Shown: piece by piece, positions 733 through 12,638 of the stretch
Layout: the number at the start of each line of letters is the position of its first letter
How positions within the stretch are numbered: the first letter of the stretch is position 1
Origin: an uncultured Eubacteriales bacterium
GTDB taxonomy: Bacteria; Bacillota; Clostridia; Lachnospirales; Lachnospiraceae
Direction of reading: 5' to 3'
Length of the DNA stretch: 37,439 bases
Assembly: GCA_949292725.1 (NCBI GenBank)
Contig: CASFAQ010000010.1
Location: forward strand, 1-37,439
The notes under the pieces: model-generated
What the model was told of the DNA's origin: nothing
The model's database searches: none
What the model saw: only the letters and a program-made list of their open reading frames with translations
Made by a program: the position numbers and the translations under genes

Positions 733-1608
733 ATGACTTTATTTCATGCAATATTATTAGGACTTGTACAGGGGCTGGCCGAGTTTCTGCCTATAAGCAG
801 TTCAGGACATCTTGCCATAATGGAGCAGGTCCTTCGTGTTGAGAACGCCGGAATGGTATTTGACGTAATGCTTCATTTTGGAACGCTTGTAGCTATTTTT
901 GCCGCATTTTGGGGCGATATTAAAAAAATGGTTGTAGAAGCTGTACTCATAGTAAGGGATGCAGTTGTTAATGTGATAATATTCTTTAAAAATTTCAATA
1001 AACCGGTACGTGATAAAGCTGCTTATAACAAGATTGTTAATTCGTCGTACAGAAAATTTGTTATGCTTATCATTGTATCGACTATACCTACAGGTATTAT
1101 GGGAGTGCTTTTTGAAAAGGCAATAGGAGTCGCGGCTACTTCGCTTATTGCAGTGGGTATATGTCTTCTTATCACCGGTATATTACTGTTATTATCGGAT
1201 AAGGCAGGCAGCGGAAACAAACATCCTAAGCAGGTTACATATCGGGAAGCCGGAATAATAGGCGTTGTACAGGGTTTTGCAACATTTCCGGGGATTTCAA
1301 GATCGGGTTCTACCATTACTGCATGCCTTTTATGCGGATTTGATAAGAGCTTTGCTGTAAGATATTCATTTATCATGTCAATCCCGGCTGTGCTTGGCGC
1401 GGTAATTTTACAGCTTAAAGATATTACATCGTTAAGCATTACCGGTCAGGAGGCACTTTATTATGTGATAGGTACGCTTGTTGCAGCTGTTGTAGGCTAC
1501 ATATGTATTAAGACAATGCTTGTTCTTGTCAGAGGAAAGAAATACAAATATTTTGCGTATTACTGCTTTTTGGTAGGCGCCTTTTCCATCCTTTGGGAGC
1601 TTGCATAG
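733..1608 (+). CDS. uppP: Undecaprenyl-diphosphatase (UppP/BacA)
   Basis: This integral membrane phosphatase turns undecaprenyl diphosphate into the monophosphate lipid carrier, which feeds peptidoglycan and wall polymer synthesis; it is also the classical bacitracin-resistance protein. The 291-residue translation carries both family signatures: EFLPISSSGHL near the N-terminus (around residues 16-27) and GISRSGSTI near residue 195. Several hydrophobic segments lie between and after them. Length is normal for the family. The ATG at 733 is preceded by a strong GGGGAGG at 719-725. The downstream ftsK ribosome-binding site overlaps this gene's stop codon, so the two are probably translationally coupled and transcribed from the promoter at 671-699. 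Confidence 0.97.
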   Translation: MTLFHAILLGLVQGLAEFLPISSSGHLAIMEQVLRVENAGMVFDVMLHFGTLVAIFAAFWGDIKKMVVEAVLIVRDAVVNVIIFFKNFNKPVRDKAAYNKIVNSSYRKFVMLIIVSTIPTGIMGVLFEKAIGVAATSLIAVGICLLITGILLLLSDKAGSGNKHPKQVTYREAGIIGVVQGFATFPGISRSGSTITACLLCGFDKSFAVRYSFIMSIPAVLGAVILQLKDITSLSITGQEALYYVIGTLVAAVVGYICIKTMLVLVRGKKYKYFAYYCFLVGAFSILWELA

Positions 1609-1624
1609 GAGGTTAGGTTTTTTA

Positions 1625-4093
1625 ATGGCTAATAAAAGAGGTACATATGATGACAATGATAATGGATTGTCAAAAGAGCTTATTATATGGATTGTTTTAC
1701 TTGTAAGTATAATTCTTATATTATGCGTGTTTGATCTGTGTGGACCGTTAAGTGATATCTTTGGTGCATTTCTTTTTGGCGTGTTTGGATTTATGGCTTA
1801 TATATTTCCTTTCATGTTGTTTTTCTCTGTTGGATTTCATTTGATGAATGCGAATAATAAAAGAGTGACCGGAAGGATAGTAGCCTCATGGATACTTTAT
1901 ATTATCATTACTGCGCTTCTACAGCTTTTTAAAGCTAATCAGGCGGAAAGTATCTTTGGCTGTTATGTTCAGGGGTATACCGAAAAAATGGGTGGGGGTT
2001 TTATAGGCGGACTTATAAGTACCGGCCTTTTAAACGCTGTGGGAAAACTTGCGGCGGCGCTTATACTTATAATCATTTCACTTATGCTCTTCGTATATAT
2101 AACAGGAAAGCTTATAGCCTCAAGAGCACTTTATAAGAGTGCGGAAAAATATAATGAATACAGAACGCAGCATGTAAGGGAGGATGCGCCGGAGGTGACC
2201 GGTGAGCAAAAAAAGAATAAGCGGTATACTTATACATTCCCAAAGGAAAATGATAATACCGCTGAAAAAAAGACGCAAAAAAAGAAAAACATTAAAGATA
2301 AAGAGGTGCATGATGTTCCTAATGAACATACAGTCATAGTGCACAGAGGGGATGAACAGCAGACTCTTCCGATATACCAGAAGGAAATCGATGAGAAATT
2401 CGGTACGGCACCTCAGTCTAAGGCAGACGATTCGCTTGACAGGATTATTGCAAGGGCAACGGCTCCGGATAATGAGGCAAGCGATATCGATACACTGACC
2501 AATGCAGGGATGGATAAGCCCGTACAGGAGCCTGTTAAGCCTGTGCAGGAGGCTGTCAGTCCCATGCCTGTGGATGAAAATATAGATATTAAACTTCCTC
2601 CTGAGCCTGTCAAATACAAATTTCCTTCTCTTAGCCTTCTTTCGGCTCCGAAAAGGTCGGGAAAGGGTATGTCTGACCGTGAATTAAAGGAGATGGCGAT
2701 AAGGCTTAAGGAATGCCTGAAAAGTTTTAAAGTAGACGTGACAATAACAGATATTATATGCGGTCCGACAGTGACAAGATACGAGCTTATGCCTGCTCTC
2801 GGAACAAGGGTCAAAAAGATTACGGAGCTTGAGAATGACATAAAGCTTAATCTCGCAGTTGCCGATATCAGAATTGAAGCGCCGATTCCCGGCAAATCTG
2901 CCGTGGGTATAGAGGTTCCGAATTCAGGTGATTCACTTATTACGCTACGCGAGATACTTGAGAGCAATGAATTTATTTCGCACAAATCTAATATTGCGTT
3001 TGCAGCCGGAAAGGATATAGGCGGACGTAATATTATAGCTGATATAGCAAGGATGCCGCACCTGCTTATTGCGGGAGCTACGGGCTCCGGTAAATCCGTA
3101 TGTATCAACACGATAGTAATGAGCCTTATATATAAGGCCAATCCGAATGATGTCAAACTGATTATGATAGACCCTAAGGTTGTAGAGCTTAGCGTATATA
3201 ACGGAATACCGTATCTGTGCATACCTGTGGTAACAGATCCAAAGAAGGCTGCGGCTGCGCTCAATTGGGCAGTTGCTGAGATGAATGAGCGTTACAGCAA
3301 ATTTGCCGAGCTTGGTGTAAGGGATATGACAGGCTTCAATAATAAAGTAGAGAAGCTTAAAGATAATCCAAATATGTATACGAAAATGCCGCAGATCGTT
3401 ATCATTGTAGATGAGCTTGCTGACCTTATGATGGTTGCGTCGCATGACGTGGAAACGGCTATCTGCCGGCTTGCACAGATGGCAAGAGCTGCCGGAATCC
3501 ATCTTATAATCGCAACACAAAGACCGTCAGTTGATGTTATAACAGGTCTTATCAAGGCAAATATTCCGTCAAGGATAGCGTTTGCAGTATCATCCTCTAT
3601 CGATTCAAGGACAATACTGGATTCTTCCGGCGCCGAGAAGCTTCTTGGAAAGGGCGATATGCTTTTTGCACCGCAGGATATATCGAAGCCTATACGTGTA
3701 CAGGGTGCATTTGTCTCTGACAGCGAGGTTGCAAGGGTAACTGATTTTATTAAAAAACAGTACGATACCCCTGTGTATGATGAGGTTATAATAGATCAGA
3801 TTGATAATACAGAGATTTCAACCAAATCGGCTGACAAGTCATACGAACAGTCAGGAGAGGATAGTAATGGACGGGATGAGCTTTTTTATGATGCGGGAAA
3901 ATTCATTATAGAAAAGCAGAAAGCTTCGATTGGCACATTGCAGCGTGTGTTCAAAATCGGTTTTAACCGTGGCGCGAGAATTATGGACCAGCTGTGTGAG
4001 GCCGGAGTTGTCGGCGAAGAAGAGGGCAAGAAACCCCGTAACATATTAATGAGCCTTGAAGATTTTGAGCAGATGATATCCGAAGGAAGGTGA
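1625..4093 (+). CDS. ftsK: DNA translocase FtsK/SpoIIIE
   Basis: This is a septum-anchored ATP-driven DNA pump that clears chromosomes from the division or sporulation septum. The 822-residue protein has an N-terminal membrane domain of about four helices (roughly residues 20-175). A charged, low-complexity linker follows (about 180-330), including a short repeat of the KPVQE type. Next is the RecA-like motor with Walker A GATGSGKS at 484-491 and Walker B IVDELADLM near 595. The C-terminal winged-helix gamma domain (about 755-820) contains the expected RVFKIGFNRGARIMDQL segment. I chose ATG 1625 because AGGAGG at 1607-1612 is correctly spaced; a TTG at 1601 lies upstream of that site. Whether it acts as FtsK or SpoIIIE cannot be told from sequence alone. 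Confidence 0.96.
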   Translation: MANKRGTYDDNDNGLSKELIIWIVLLVSIILILCVFDLCGPLSDIFGAFLFGVFGFMAYIFPFMLFFSVGFHLMNANNKRVTGRIVASWILYIIITALLQLFKANQAESIFGCYVQGYTEKMGGGFIGGLISTGLLNAVGKLAAALILIIISLMLFVYITGKLIASRALYKSAEKYNEYRTQHVREDAPEVTGEQKKNKRYTYTFPKENDNTAEKKTQKKKNIKDKEVHDVPNEHTVIVHRGDEQQTLPIYQKEIDEKFGTAPQSKADDSLDRIIARATAPDNEASDIDTLTNAGMDKPVQEPVKPVQEAVSPMPVDENIDIKLPPEPVKYKFPSLSLLSAPKRSGKGMSDRELKEMAIRLKECLKSFKVDVTITDIICGPTVTRYELMPALGTRVKKITELENDIKLNLAVADIRIEAPIPGKSAVGIEVPNSGDSLITLREILESNEFISHKSNIAFAAGKDIGGRNIIADIARMPHLLIAGATGSGKSVCINTIVMSLIYKANPNDVKLIMIDPKVVELSVYNGIPYLCIPVVTDPKKAAAALNWAVAEMNERYSKFAELGVRDMTGFNNKVEKLKDNPNMYTKMPQIVIIVDELADLMMVASHDVETAICRLAQMARAAGIHLIIATQRPSVDVITGLIKANIPSRIAFAVSSSIDSRTILDSSGAEKLLGKGDMLFAPQDISKPIRVQGAFVSDSEVARVTDFIKKQYDTPVYDEVIIDQIDNTEISTKSADKSYEQSGEDSNGRDELFYDAGKFIIEKQKASIGTLQRVFKIGFNRGARIMDQLCEAGVVGEEEGKKPRNILMSLEDFEQMISEGR

Positions 4094-4098
4094 TTGGC

Positions 4099-4989
4099 TT
4101 GAAACTCTGGATTGTTGTCAATCATTTTCTCAGAGCACCTAAGTTTTGTGAATTGGAAGAGAGATTGTCCGATGCCGCTTCATTTTACGGAATCGAATAT
4201 CAGATTGTTACCAATTCAGAATGTCTCATCAGCTGCGATAATAACAGCTTAACCACCGGCGTTATTCCGAATGGAACAGATCCCGTACTTTTCTGGGACA
4301 AGGATATCAGGCTTGGTAATGCGCTTGAAAGATGCGGTCACAGACTATACAATTCTTCTTATGCCGTAAGCGTATGTGATGATAAGACGTTGTCGGCTAT
4401 AGCGCTTGCCGGATGTGGAATCCGAATGCCGCATACAAGTATATCGCCAATGACATATCGTAATGTAGGTTATACGGATTGGAATTTCCTTGAGAAGATT
4501 ATTGAACGCATAGGATTTCCGATGATTGTTAAAGAAGCATATGGTTCATTCGGACAGCAGGTATACAAATGCGAGGATTATAATGAACTTATGCAGCTTG
4601 TGAGCTGTATTGATTCAGAAGCCATACTTTTTCAGCAATATATAAGCTCAAGTTATGCAAGAGATGTTAGGCTGCAGGTGGTAGGAGACAGGGTGACAAC
4701 GGCAATGTATCGCTATTCTGAATCAGGGGATTTTCGTGCCAATATTACGAACGGTGGTAAAATGATTCCCTATGATGCCAATGATGAGGAAAAGAAATTT
4801 GCCTTATCCGTTGCAAAAAGGTTGAAACTTGATTTCTGCGGTATAGACATGCTGTTTGGCGAGAATGACGAACCGGTATTATGTGAAATCAATTCGAATG
4901 CACATTTTGTAAATATTGACAACTGTACCGGTTCGGATACGGCAAAAGACATTATTTCATATATTATTTCAAATCATTCGGGATGGTAA
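4099..4989 (+). CDS. RimK-like ATP-grasp ligase, first of a tandem pair
   Basis: This ATP-grasp carboxylate-amine ligase resembles the RimK/glutathione synthetase group, which join an amino acid or amine to a carboxylate through an acylphosphate. Seen in the 296-residue product: an N-terminal pre-ATP-grasp domain, the ATP-binding loop MIVKEAYGSFGQQV near residue 150, and a RimK-style block (ARDVRLQVVGD, then GDFRANITNGGK). The metal-binding pair CGIDMLF and CEINSN near the C-terminus supplies the Asp, Glu and Asn ligands. Start choice: the TTG at 4099 has GGAAGG at 4085-4090 at good spacing, whereas the GTG at 4090 would abut it. The 3' end overlaps the next gene, a second ATP-grasp protein. 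The substrate is unknown; the pairing suggests a two-step or heteromeric ligation. RimK itself (ribosomal S6 glutamylation) is not assumed. Confidence 0.85.
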   Translation: MKLWIVVNHFLRAPKFCELEERLSDAASFYGIEYQIVTNSECLISCDNNSLTTGVIPNGTDPVLFWDKDIRLGNALERCGHRLYNSSYAVSVCDDKTLSAIALAGCGIRMPHTSISPMTYRNVGYTDWNFLEKIIERIGFPMIVKEAYGSFGQQVYKCEDYNELMQLVSCIDSEAILFQQYISSSYARDVRLQVVGDRVTTAMYRYSESGDFRANITNGGKMIPYDANDEEKKFALSVAKRLKLDFCGIDMLFGENDEPVLCEINSNAHFVNIDNCTGSDTAKDIISYIISNHSGW

Positions 4990-5939
4990 AAATGAAAGAT
5001 ATCTGGCTTATATATTACGACTCATATATCTCTAAGAACAGGTATTTTATTGATGAAATCATAAATGAAGGAAAAAAATCCGGTCTTAATGTCAGGCTTG
5101 TGACGGTCGAGGATTTGGATAATAATATGTATGATAACCTGCCTGATGCGGTCATTATGCGCGCTATTAATCCTGAACTCTCTATGAAGCTTGAAGATAT
5201 GGGAATAAGGTTATTCAATAACGCATCTGTTTCAGTACTGTGTAATAATAAAGCTGAGACGATACGAAGGGTGCATAAGCTTGGAATAATTCATATTCCT
5301 ACCATAACAGTCTCGCTAAAATCATCTGCAAAAGATTTTCAGTTCTCATATGAATATATATGCAGTCCTTTTTTGGAGCATTATAATGACACGCTTACAA
5401 AACTTAATGAGAATATCCTTGATGATATTTTCATGAAAAATAAGTGCGCGGATATTGATTTGTCAAAATATGTCATTAAATCCGTAACGGGGCATGGTGG
5501 ACGCGAGGTTATGCTTTTATCTGATTTTTATTTGGGAAATGGCGAGTTTGGTGCACAGGAACGGGATGCATCGTCTTTCTATAGTGATAAATATATTATT
5601 CAACCGCTTATGTCTGAATATATGTCGGATATACGTGTATATATAATAGATGGAAAGATAATTGGCGCAGTTAAAAGAAGTGCCGGAAATGGCTTTAAAT
5701 CCAACTATTCGCTTGGCGGAAGGGTTTGTCTTTTTACTCCGGAAGGATATATGTATGAATACATCGGCAAAATACTTACGCTATGCGATTTTTCTTATAT
5801 AGGAATAGATTTTTTATATTCGTCTGAGGGCAGACCGGTTTTTAATGAGATAGAAGATGTTGTAGGAGCCAGAATGCTTTCAGAATGTGGCGTTGATGAT
5901 TATGTGAGAAAATATATGGAATATATAAGGATATTATGA
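4983..5939 (+). CDS. ATP-grasp ligase-like protein, second of a tandem pair
   Basis: This 318-residue protein has the same overall fold as its upstream neighbour but is clearly diverged. Visible are a Rossmann-like N-terminus, the loop YVIKSVTGHGGREV that would close over ATP, a RimK-like block (SDIRVYIIDGKIIGAVKR followed by a Gly-Gly segment), and a C-terminal acidic pair. The pair is GIDFLY plus NEIEDVVGARML. The second metal motif reads E-I-E-D instead of the usual E-x-N-x-N, so metal binding or activity may differ. An extra stretch around residues 105-150 precedes the ATP loop. The ATG at 4983 overlaps the previous gene by 7 bases; a second in-frame ATG at 4992 is equally possible and neither has a strong Shine-Dalgarno, which fits translational coupling. 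Its reaction is unknown. Confidence 0.78.
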   Translation: MVKMKDIWLIYYDSYISKNRYFIDEIINEGKKSGLNVRLVTVEDLDNNMYDNLPDAVIMRAINPELSMKLEDMGIRLFNNASVSVLCNNKAETIRRVHKLGIIHIPTITVSLKSSAKDFQFSYEYICSPFLEHYNDTLTKLNENILDDIFMKNKCADIDLSKYVIKSVTGHGGREVMLLSDFYLGNGEFGAQERDASSFYSDKYIIQPLMSEYMSDIRVYIIDGKIIGAVKRSAGNGFKSNYSLGGRVCLFTPEGYMYEYIGKILTLCDFSYIGIDFLYSSEGRPVFNEIEDVVGARMLSECGVDDYVRKYMEYIRIL

Positions 5940-5987: not shown

Positions 5988-7658
5988 ATGAAAAGTGATA
6001 TTGAGATTGCACAGGAAGCGGTAATGAAACCTATCGGCGAGGTTGCGGCAGCGCTTGATATTAATTCGGATGAACTGGAATTATACGGCAGATACAAAGC
6101 AAAGCTCTCCGACGAGCTTACGGAGCGCATTAAAGATAATGATGACGGAAAGCTTATTCTTGTTACGGCTATTAATCCTACTCCTGCAGGAGAGGGCAAG
6201 ACTACAACCACCGTGGGACTGGGACAGGCGTTCGGACGTCTTGGTAAAAAGTCCGTTATTGCGCTAAGAGAGCCGTCGCTCGGACCGTGTTTTGGAATCA
6301 AAGGAGGCGCGGCCGGAGGAGGATATGCTCAGGTTGTTCCAATGGAAGAACTTAATCTTCATTTCACGGGAGATTTTCACGCAATTACCTCGGCCAATAA
6401 TCTTCTTGCCGCAATGCTGGATAATCATATAATGCAGGGCAATGCATTAAGAATCGACACTGACCAGATTGTATGGAAGAGATGTGTTGACATCAATGAC
6501 AGAGTTTTGCGTAATATCGTAGTTGGGCTTGGAAGAAAGGCCGACGGTGTAGTGAGGGAGGACCACTTCATCATAACCGTTGCTTCAGAGATAATGGCGA
6601 TTCTCTGTCTTGCTGATGATATGAACGATCTTAAAAAACGTCTCTCGCGTATCATCGTAGCGTATAATTATGATGGAGAGCCTGTTACGGCCGGAGACCT
6701 TCTTGCAACGGGTTCCATGGCGGCGCTGTTAAAGGACGCCATAAAGCCTAATCTTATACAGACCCTTGAGAACACACCGGCTATAGTACATGGAGGTCCG
6801 TTTGCCAATATAGCGCATGGATGTAACAGTGTTCGTGCGACCAAAATAGCGTTAAAGCTTGCAGATTATGTTATCACCGAGGCCGGATTCGGAGCCGATC
6901 TTGGTGCGGAAAAATTCATGGATATCAAGTGCCGTATGGCAAAGCTCAGACCTGACGCAATAGTACTTGTAGCCACAGTACGTGCCCTCAAATACAATGG
7001 CGGTGTACCAAGGGATGAGCTTTCGGAGGAGAATATGGATGCTCTTAGGAAGGGTATTGTTAATCTCGAAAAGCATATAGAAAATATTGCTAAATTTGGC
7101 GTGCCATGTGTTGTTACGCTCAATAGATTTGTTACTGATACGGATAACGAACTTGATTATGTTAAAAAATACTGCGAAGACAGAGGTTGCAGTTTTGCTC
7201 TTTCCGAAGTATGGGAGCACGGCGGTGACGGCGGTATTGAGCTTGCTAATAAGGTTATTGATACTCTTGATAACAAACAAAGTTATTTTCAACCACTGTA
7301 TCCTGATGATATGTCACTTGAAGAGAAGATTGAAACTGTTGCAAAAGAAATATACGGAGCAGATGGAGTTACATTTGATGTATCTGCAAGAAAGTCAATG
7401 GAGAGGCTTACAAAGCTTGGATTTGGACATATGCCGGTATGTATGGCTAAGAACCAGTATTCACTATCGGATGACCCGACAAGACTTGGAAGACCTAAGG
7501 GATTTACTGTTAACATAAGGGATATATATGTATCGGCAGGAGCGGGTTTTGTCGTGGCCATCACAGGAACTGTAATGACAATGCCTGGATTGCCATTACA
7601 TCCTGCGGCTGAAAGAATTGATGTAAATGATGAAGGAAAAATAACCGGATTATTCTAA
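5988..7658 (+). CDS. fhs: Formate-tetrahydrofolate ligase
   Basis: The enzyme makes 10-formyltetrahydrofolate from formate, ATP and tetrahydrofolate, feeding purine and formyl-Met synthesis and, in acetogens, the methyl branch of the Wood-Ljungdahl pathway. The 556-residue length and motifs fit: the P-loop-like [14 protein letters not shown] around residues 64-77, then [19 protein letters not shown] and the [10 protein letters not shown] segment. The conserved C-terminal part ends in the expected [13 protein letters not shown] region. ATG 5988 follows a good GGAGGA at 5975-5980. The gene could be cotranscribed with the ATP-grasp pair, since only 48 bases separate them. It ends convergently with pyrI with its stop codon overlapping pyrI's. 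No other acetogenesis genes are in the window, so fhs alone does not show acetogenesis. Confidence 0.98.
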
Positions 7659-10967: not shown

Positions 10968-12605
10968 TTATTTTATTGCGATAACAGTATTAAGTTCTTT
11001 GCCGGTGTCCGAATATTCGAATGTTATGTTGTCGCCCGGATTTGAAAGGATTATTGATACATTTTTCGATACATCCACGTCATATATCTTATTTCCATCA
11101 TCGAGTACGATATAATAATGTGAATTGCCGTCAACTACAGTCTGTGCAATTCTTGTAATCACTCCGGTGACGGTTTTAACATTGTCATACACGGGCTCAT
11201 CGGATATATCTTCGGTAATGTTATTGCTGACAAGCATATCCATATAGTTCTTTTCGCATTCCTCTACTGTATTGGCAGTGGCTACCAGCGTATATTTTTG
11301 GATATTGACCATTGCATACATTTTAACGAGCCCTGCACTGTCCTTTAAGGACATAAAATATGTCGGTTCTCCGGATATATTCAGAAGGATGGGAAATGTC
11401 GCCTTATATCCGAGATTCTGAACCTTACCTTCTGCGGAGTCCATCGCAGAGTATTCCTTTGCACCGGGAATCTGATAGTATTTGGTGCGCCCAGTACGTT
11501 GGTTCATAAGTACAAATCCCACTATGGACTCATCTCCGCCAACACTCGTAATGCCTGTATATACCCATATATCATCATCAGATGCAATATAGTTGTAACC
11601 CTCTGTTGTGATAAGACAGTCCTTTTGACTTAATATGGAATTAAAATATCCATGTTGCAGCGTTCCATAATAATCATAATGGGATATAAGCAGGTCAGCA
11701 GAGAATACATGATCAACCCATTGTGGAACATCTTCAATATCATAATCTATCGTCTCACCGGTAATAGCATTAACAAGGACAACCCTGCCTATTGTAACGC
11801 CTCCGAACAGTCCGATTGTATAATCTTTAACAGGGCATATCCAATACGGGGTTCCCTGTTCATCGATTTCCATATTGATGGTATCGAACATATACGTCGG
11901 ATATTTGAATCTGATATGCCTGTATATAAGACGTCCAAAATGCTCTGATTTGGAATATTTGATACCTTCCGACAGTTCAACGCATTCGGCATCCTGTGAT
12001 GCCATGTCTATCATGATATAAGCCGGTAAGCCTTCTTTCCTGTTAGTAAACCATTTAAGAAGACTGCCGTACTCTAATGGAGTTACTCTTACCGGCTTGC
12101 CCTGATAGTTGATCTGTGTATAGTCAGAAGCCACTTCAAACTGCGAGACATATTTAACCAGAGTACCCATTTTTCTGGCACCAACTATCTCTGCGGACAT
12201 ACGGTCTAAAAGAGGTATTTCATTATATGATATCTGCTTTATATCCTCAGTAAAATTACCGTCTTCTATACTGATAATTTCCCTGTATTTGCGTGCATTA
12301 AAAACTTCCGATGATAATAACGTACCAATAAGATATATTAAAACCAGAAGAATGGTAATACCTGAAAATATTTTAAACAGGATACTGTTTCCAAACAATA
12401 TCTTTATATGGGTCTTATCAACTGCGTGATTCTTAAGTGTGTAAAGCCCGATTAGCGCAGTAAGAATAAGCGATAGCACTATCACAAAGCCCCAAAATCC
12501 CGGTGAATGGATATTTATCGGCGGAAGAGCTGCATAATAATAGCATCCTCCGGTTATCAAAAATAATAGTATAATTATAATAGTAGCCTTGGTTTTTCCT
12601 CTCAT
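10968..12605 (-). CDS. Membrane-anchored protein with large extracytoplasmic domain, function unknown
   Basis: I cannot assign a family to this 545-residue protein. Three hydrophobic helices lie near the N-terminus (about residues 5-25, 35-55 and 75-98). A soluble region of roughly 440 residues rich in Tyr, Ile and Asp follows, presumably outside the membrane. Recognisable internal features are a Phe/Tyr-rich block (RHIRFKYPTYMF near residue 230) and a segment IGRVVLVNAITGETIDYDI near 280. A C-terminal stretch of about 65 residues (GVITRIAQTVVDG onward) has the alternating pattern of a small beta-barrel, possibly OB-like. ATG 12605 is chosen because AGAAGGA lies six bases upstream; the TTG two codons earlier does not fit the spacing. 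A good promoter (12639-12668) precedes it. Confidence 0.75.
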   Translation of the reverse strand: MRGKTKATIIIILLFLITGGCYYYAALPPINIHSPGFWGFVIVLSLILTALIGLYTLKNHAVDKTHIKILFGNSILFKIFSGITILLVLIYLIGTLLSSEVFNARKYREIISIEDGNFTEDIKQISYNEIPLLDRMSAEIVGARKMGTLVKYVSQFEVASDYTQINYQGKPVRVTPLEYGSLLKWFTNRKEGLPAYIMIDMASQDAECVELSEGIKYSKSEHFGRLIYRHIRFKYPTYMFDTINMEIDEQGTPYWICPVKDYTIGLFGGVTIGRVVLVNAITGETIDYDIEDVPQWVDHVFSADLLISHYDYYGTLQHGYFNSILSQKDCLITTEGYNYIASDDDIWVYTGITSVGGDESIVGFVLMNQRTGRTKYYQIPGAKEYSAMDSAEGKVQNLGYKATFPILLNISGEPTYFMSLKDSAGLVKMYAMVNIQKYTLVATANTVEECEKNYMDMLVSNNITEDISDEPVYDNVKTVTGVITRIAQTVVDGNSHYYIVLDDGNKIYDVDVSKNVSIILSNPGDNITFEYSDTGKELNTVIAIK

Positions 12606-12638
12606 ATGCAATCCTTCTTTTCTTGATTAATACCATAA

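Follow-up and report, generated by a model that had tools for sequence, protein, structure and literature searches.

Which product is made by two RimK-like ATP-grasp ligases that are encoded back to back, with overlapping ends, between ftsK and the folate-dependent gene fhs in a Lachnospiraceae genome? Both open reading frames were located in the window (the whole stretch of 37,439 nucleotides analysed) as an earlier reading, made from the sequence only, had described them. That reading held that the product could not be guessed. The proteins, designated A and B, were compared with characterised families, and their distribution and gene context were examined in Lachnospiraceae and beyond.

The A-B locus and its two proteins

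The features of the locus are as follows.

1601..4093, + strand: ftsK, found upstream of the pair in most Lachnospiraceae carriers (PF01580, 1e-68; conserved order)
4083..4090, + strand: ribosome-binding-like AAGGAAGG, upstream of gene A and inside the end of ftsK (read from the sequence)
4099..4989, + strand: gene A, RimK-type ATP-grasp ligase, 296 aa (PF08443, TIGR00768, AF2 model)
4983..5939, + strand: gene B, diverged RimK-fold ATP-grasp protein, 318 aa (PF08443, invariant columns, AF2 model)
5331..5462, + strand: insertion within B ahead of the ATP loop, characteristic chiefly of the window's genus (B homologues from other genera are mostly gapped here)
5988..7658, + strand: fhs, formate--tetrahydrofolate ligase, folate-dependent, downstream neighbour of the pair (PF01268, 9e-279; conserved order)

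Gene A starts with TTG at 4099, in agreement with the N-termini of its homologues (MKLWIVVN), and gene B starts with ATG at 4983, giving an overlap of 7 bases; an alternative in-frame ATG at 4992 would abolish this overlap. Elsewhere in the window, positions 10968-12611 encode a 547-aa protein with hydrophobic N-terminal stretches and no Pfam match, which occupies the same place in congeners.

Protein A scored 143 bits against the Pfam RimK domain (PF08443, cut-off 21) and is a member of the RimK family of alpha-L-glutamate ligases (TIGR00768; 193.6 bits, subfamily cut-off 143.4). The full metal-ligand set noticed earlier was confirmed (D250, E263, and N265 in the motifs CGIDMLF and CEINSN), and 38 columns were invariant across 20 homologues. 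The AF2 model (pLDDT 92) had RimK (5zct) as its top PDB match, with a TM-score of about 0.8 and 25% identity. The scores of A were under the cut-offs of the models for the S6 glutamate ligase equivalog (NF007764; 77 bits, cut-off 331), MptN (NF040720; 91 bits, cut-off 350), and CofF (TIGR04443; 57 bits, cut-off 300).

Protein B is 19% identical to A, and both have the ATP-grasp fold by their predicted models. It scored 31 bits against PF08443 (cut-off 21) and 79.6 bits against TIGR00768, which makes it a non-member by that model (subfamily cut-off 143.4). It was under the cut-offs for MptN (NF040720; 42.5 bits vs. 350) and CofF (TIGR04443; 20 bits vs. 300) and was not among the matches to NF007764. 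The best PDB match of its AF2 model (pLDDT 89.7) was ArgX (3vpb, Z 24.4), and the model was also close to LysX (5k2m, Z 22.7) and RimK. In the profile search, neither protein strongly matched a characterised family whose substrate is known, and one of the two outcomes that the sequence-only reading had named as refuting did not occur: A passes the RimK subfamily model only, and no equivalog cut-off is reached by either protein.

In B, 33 columns were invariant across 19 homologues, including K166, G170-H171-G172-G173, D216, R218, N241, D276, and N288-E289-I290-E291-D292. The near-invariant motifs of the family are NEIEDxxGxRML, the ATP loop KSxxGHGGxxV, DxRxY, and R..F[KR]SN..LGG. With GIDFLY and NEIED, the metal Asp and Glu are retained, and Glu takes the place of the third-ligand Asn in every homologue, a change that could alter or abolish metal binding. 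The insertion (about residues 117-160) is largest in the window's genus, is variable there, and is mostly absent elsewhere. Both peculiarities reported from the sequence, the altered NEIED motif and the insertion ahead of the ATP loop, are therefore real; the motif is a signature of the B family and not a sign of decay. A decaying duplicate lacking conservation, the other refuting outcome named earlier, is excluded by the invariant columns and motifs of B and by its conservation in 18 genera and beyond.

Distribution and gene neighbourhoods of the pair

In a sample of 150 Lachnospiraceae genera, each represented by one genome, both A and B were present in 18 and A alone in two (G007 and G052). 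Within the window's genus, B was found in nine of ten genomes. A pattern search of 84,980 genomes added carriers from Bacillaceae, Oscillospiraceae, and Clostridia, with A and B nearly always adjacent; A was intact in L137 and L148 according to tblastn. A and B formed two clades, one for each protein, whose topologies ran parallel, and one Lachnospiraceae MAG encodes A and B as a clean natural fusion, 574 aa long (L151:7089-8813). Conservation of the pair, the fusion, and the parallel gene trees agree with the earlier view that the two are coupled, that one partner is altered, and that a heteromer or sequential addition is the natural reading. The phylum-wide matches outside the family (E<=1e-25) were set aside as single RimK-like genes, for which the A profile scored higher than the B profile.

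The neighbourhood comparison bore out the association with ftsK and fhs: the order ftsK-A-B-fhs was kept in most Lachnospiraceae carriers, with few insertions. Several Anaerocolumna-like genomes have a gene for a non-discriminating AspRS-type synthetase between B and fhs (L124:9705-11027 and similar, cluster c20), and in one congener a gene encoding 1966 aa is inserted at this place (L082:9938-15838). The link of the pair to AspRS-like and HAD genes, which lie near it in some genomes, looked incidental, and ftsK, uppP, clpP, and pyrBI were regarded as stable neighbours on the chromosome rather than functional partners. As the sequence-only reading had remarked for this locus, no peptide precursor, transporter, or modifying enzyme was conserved beside the pair across the compared loci, and a RiPP or other natural-product cluster was rejected on this ground. 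No gene for the carrier protein LysW was seen beside the pair.

In Bacillaceae, the pair mostly sits in the gap between valS and folC. Three Bacillaceae loci have A-B followed on the same strand by a FolC paralogue (L159:9034-10368, TIGR01499 248 bits; L186:8861-10195; L189:8858-10192), and at two Lachnospiraceae loci (L104:6572-7882 and L105:8733-10355), a member of the same paralogue subfamily adjoins a sister RimK-like gene. This distinct subfamily, with the motif G[RK]GxxYDDxN, thus lies next to RimK-like ATP-grasp genes in two phylogenetic contexts. Folate genes were absent near the pair in several contexts (L134, L164, L171, L172, and L182).

FolC content of pair-bearing genomes

FolC was counted using TIGR01499 and HPPK using PF01288 across the same 150 Lachnospiraceae genomes, 87 of which were HPPK-positive. 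In co-absence statistics that compare the pair with FolC only and that use metagenome-derived genomes, two or more FolC were found in 0 of 15 pair-bearing vs. 64 of 72 pair-less HPPK-positive genomes (Fisher p=1.9e-11). Among genomes at least 90% complete, the corresponding counts were 0/14 and 58/63. On a genome tree of 80 genomes built from FolB-HPPK, DHPS, and FolE, i.e., from the folate genes themselves, the pair was scattered, and parsimony gave 13 changes for each trait. The dependent model of the Pagel test was superior to the independent one (LR 48.2, p=8.5e-10), the contexts and tests having been picked after the first FolC-count pattern emerged, so that all p-values describe the strength of the association and not a pre-registered test. 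Simulation under the fitted model produced an association as extreme as that observed in 0 of 20,000 cases.

The FolC proteins of Lachnospiraceae form two clades, a fol-cluster type and a valS-linked type; in pair-less genomes, a FolC next to valS is usually accompanied by a second one in a folate cluster. The single FolC of pair-bearing genomes belonged to the fol-cluster type in all 15 cases typed, the window's own included, and lies in the folE-folP-folBK cluster. In the window's genome, folC-folE-folP-folBK is located on contig C57, and a second FolC is absent. A 573-aa frame on the same contig joins FolB and HPPK with prephenate dehydratase and an ACT domain (L239:4184-5905). By genome content, then, the pair stands in for the valS-linked FolC type in folate-making Lachnospiraceae. 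Of the 20 folate auxotrophs (HPPK absent) with one FolC, 16 had the valS type; since auxotrophs usually keep this type, it is, judging from genome content, most likely the folylpolyglutamate synthase. In L. reuteri, disruption of folC removes only the polyglutamate tail, and folC2, which belongs to a different family (COG1478), is needed for folate itself (PMC5061717).

Eight of the 72 pair-less genomes were exceptions in not having two or more FolC. Two of them carry A alone (G007 and G052), and as both also lack a second FolC, this suggests that A is the active ligase. Six HPPK-positive genomes, two of them assemblies less than 90% complete, had one FolC and neither A nor B, which indicates that one FolC can suffice. 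No FolC was detected in 11 of 44 further pair-bearing genomes; in two of these, L127 and L146, fhs adjoins the pair or lies close to it. Bacillaceae have the valS-linked FolC as well as the pair, which is therefore not always a replacement. Apart from these, some Lachnospiraceae genomes more than 95% complete (G043, G117, and others) have neither FolC, HPPK, nor the A-B pair.

Putative function and comparison with known systems

The adjoining fhs gene and the phylogenetic profile against FolC make the product of the pair guessable after all, and they point to the polyglutamate tail of folate. A and B together probably constitute an ATP-grasp folylpolyglutamate ligase, a non-orthologous replacement for the folylpolyglutamate synthase FolC; phylogenetic profile and gene context support this activity (EC 6.3.2.17), and from them we infer folate as the substrate and glutamate as the donor. 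According to the proposed mechanism, FolC of the folE-folP-folBK cluster would make dihydrofolate by adding the first glutamate. After reduction, A, probably as an A-B complex, would phosphorylate the folate glutamate at its terminal carboxylate using ATP, and further glutamates would be attached by A or A-B. The resulting polyglutamate tail would enable Fhs and other enzymes of one-carbon metabolism to keep hold of the cofactor. Because RimK, MptN, and CofF attach glutamate by an alpha linkage, any tails made by A-B are possibly alpha-linked as well, going by homology to these ligases. Tentatively, and with more doubt than conviction, A-B may be envisaged as a heteromer making alpha-linked or mixed-linkage tails, which would give many gut Lachnospiraceae a chemically different folate pool without a polyglutamate synthase of the FolC type.

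Within the folate explanation, B may be a second ligase or a regulatory subunit. A catalytically dead B with a regulatory role falls only a little short of an even chance; as a sub-question of the folate explanation, its confidence overlaps that of the explanation as a whole. The loss of the third metal ligand (Asn to Glu) in every B homologue, the occurrence of A without B in G007 and G052, and the natural A-B fusion are consistent with a dead subunit, but B keeps the Lys and Gly residues of the ATP loop, the metal Asp and Glu, and R..F[KR]SN, which goes beyond the needs of a pure scaffold.

Three explanations other than FolC replacement were weighed. The pair might cap or branch the folate tails made by a bifunctional fol-cluster FolC, as CofF caps F420, with no replacement of FolC. 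CofF and MptN are indeed capping alpha-glutamate ligases of the same family, although their homology to A is weak, and Bacillaceae have both FolC and the pair; however, the pair is kept in genomes without any FolC, and capping alone leaves the loss of the valS-linked FolC unexplained, so this role appears unlikely. Still less probable is a peptide-like metabolite or cofactor unrelated to folate (e.g., an amino-acid ligase product). The contexts without folate genes and the failure of both proteins to reach an equivalog model would fit such a product, but it accounts neither for the loss of exactly one FolC type, nor for the carriers without FolC, nor for the run of A-B and FolC paralogue in Bacillaceae. 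Least probable of all is protein modification in the manner of RimK (glutamates on a C terminus, as in ribosomal protein S6), with an indirect FolC pattern, for although A passes the RimK subfamily model and has RimK as its top structural match, its score is far under the S6 ligase cut-off, and this activity predicts neither the anti-correlation with the valS-linked FolC nor folate neighbours.

To our knowledge, the polyglutamylation of folate is nearly universal and is ascribed to FolC. A literature search on ATP-grasp or RimK proteins and folate polyglutamylation, with subscription literature outside its scope, returned only MyfA/MyfB and unrelated papers, and no earlier proposal of an ATP-grasp folylpolyglutamate ligase was found in it. 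The pair is a concrete candidate for a folate tail ligase in place of FolC and comes with genomes in which to test it. A FolC-only rule has been applied to gut genomes in predicting folate status (PMC6593275). Such a rule would misjudge pair-bearing genomes, so if replacement of FolC by A-B is true, folate-status prediction for Lachnospiraceae would change. Should the tails be alpha-linked, the folate of the gut would comprise a form that may resist trimming by ordinary gamma-glutamyl hydrolases.

Among the known systems, RimK (S6--L-glutamate ligase/poly-alpha-glutamate synthetase, TIGR00768, 5zct) shares its fold, metal ligands, and ATP loop with A and its fold with B. In contrast to RimK, to which A is only 25% identical, A and B are nearly always paired and have a folate gene context, B is without the E-x-N motif, and neither protein passes the S6-ligase equivalog. 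The closest solved structures to B are ArgX and LysX (3vpb and 5k2m), and NEIEDV of B corresponds to NELNDV in ArgX; B is 20% identical, and the substrate of ArgX/LysX is the carrier protein LysW. The alpha-L-glutamate ligases MptN (tetrahydromethanopterin) and CofF (F420) are RimK-family enzymes that glutamylate cofactors, as proposed for the pair, but they are single genes acting on other cofactors. MyfA and MyfB, likened to the pair by function only, are two ATP-grasp ligases that act in turn to build the polyglutamate tail of the one-carbon cofactor methylofuran (PMC8141765); they are proteobacterial, and the cofactor is different. FolC (TIGR01499) catalyses the same reaction as proposed for the pair, which in folate-making Lachnospiraceae is present only where the valS-linked type is missing; FolC has the Mur-ligase fold, whereas A and B are ATP-grasp proteins with no homology to it and no match to the FolC model. 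Recruitment of a cofactor glutamate ligase in place of FolC has a parallel in chlamydial CT611, a CofE-type protein (COG1478, not ATP-grasp) that complemented an E. coli folC mutant (PMC1971073).
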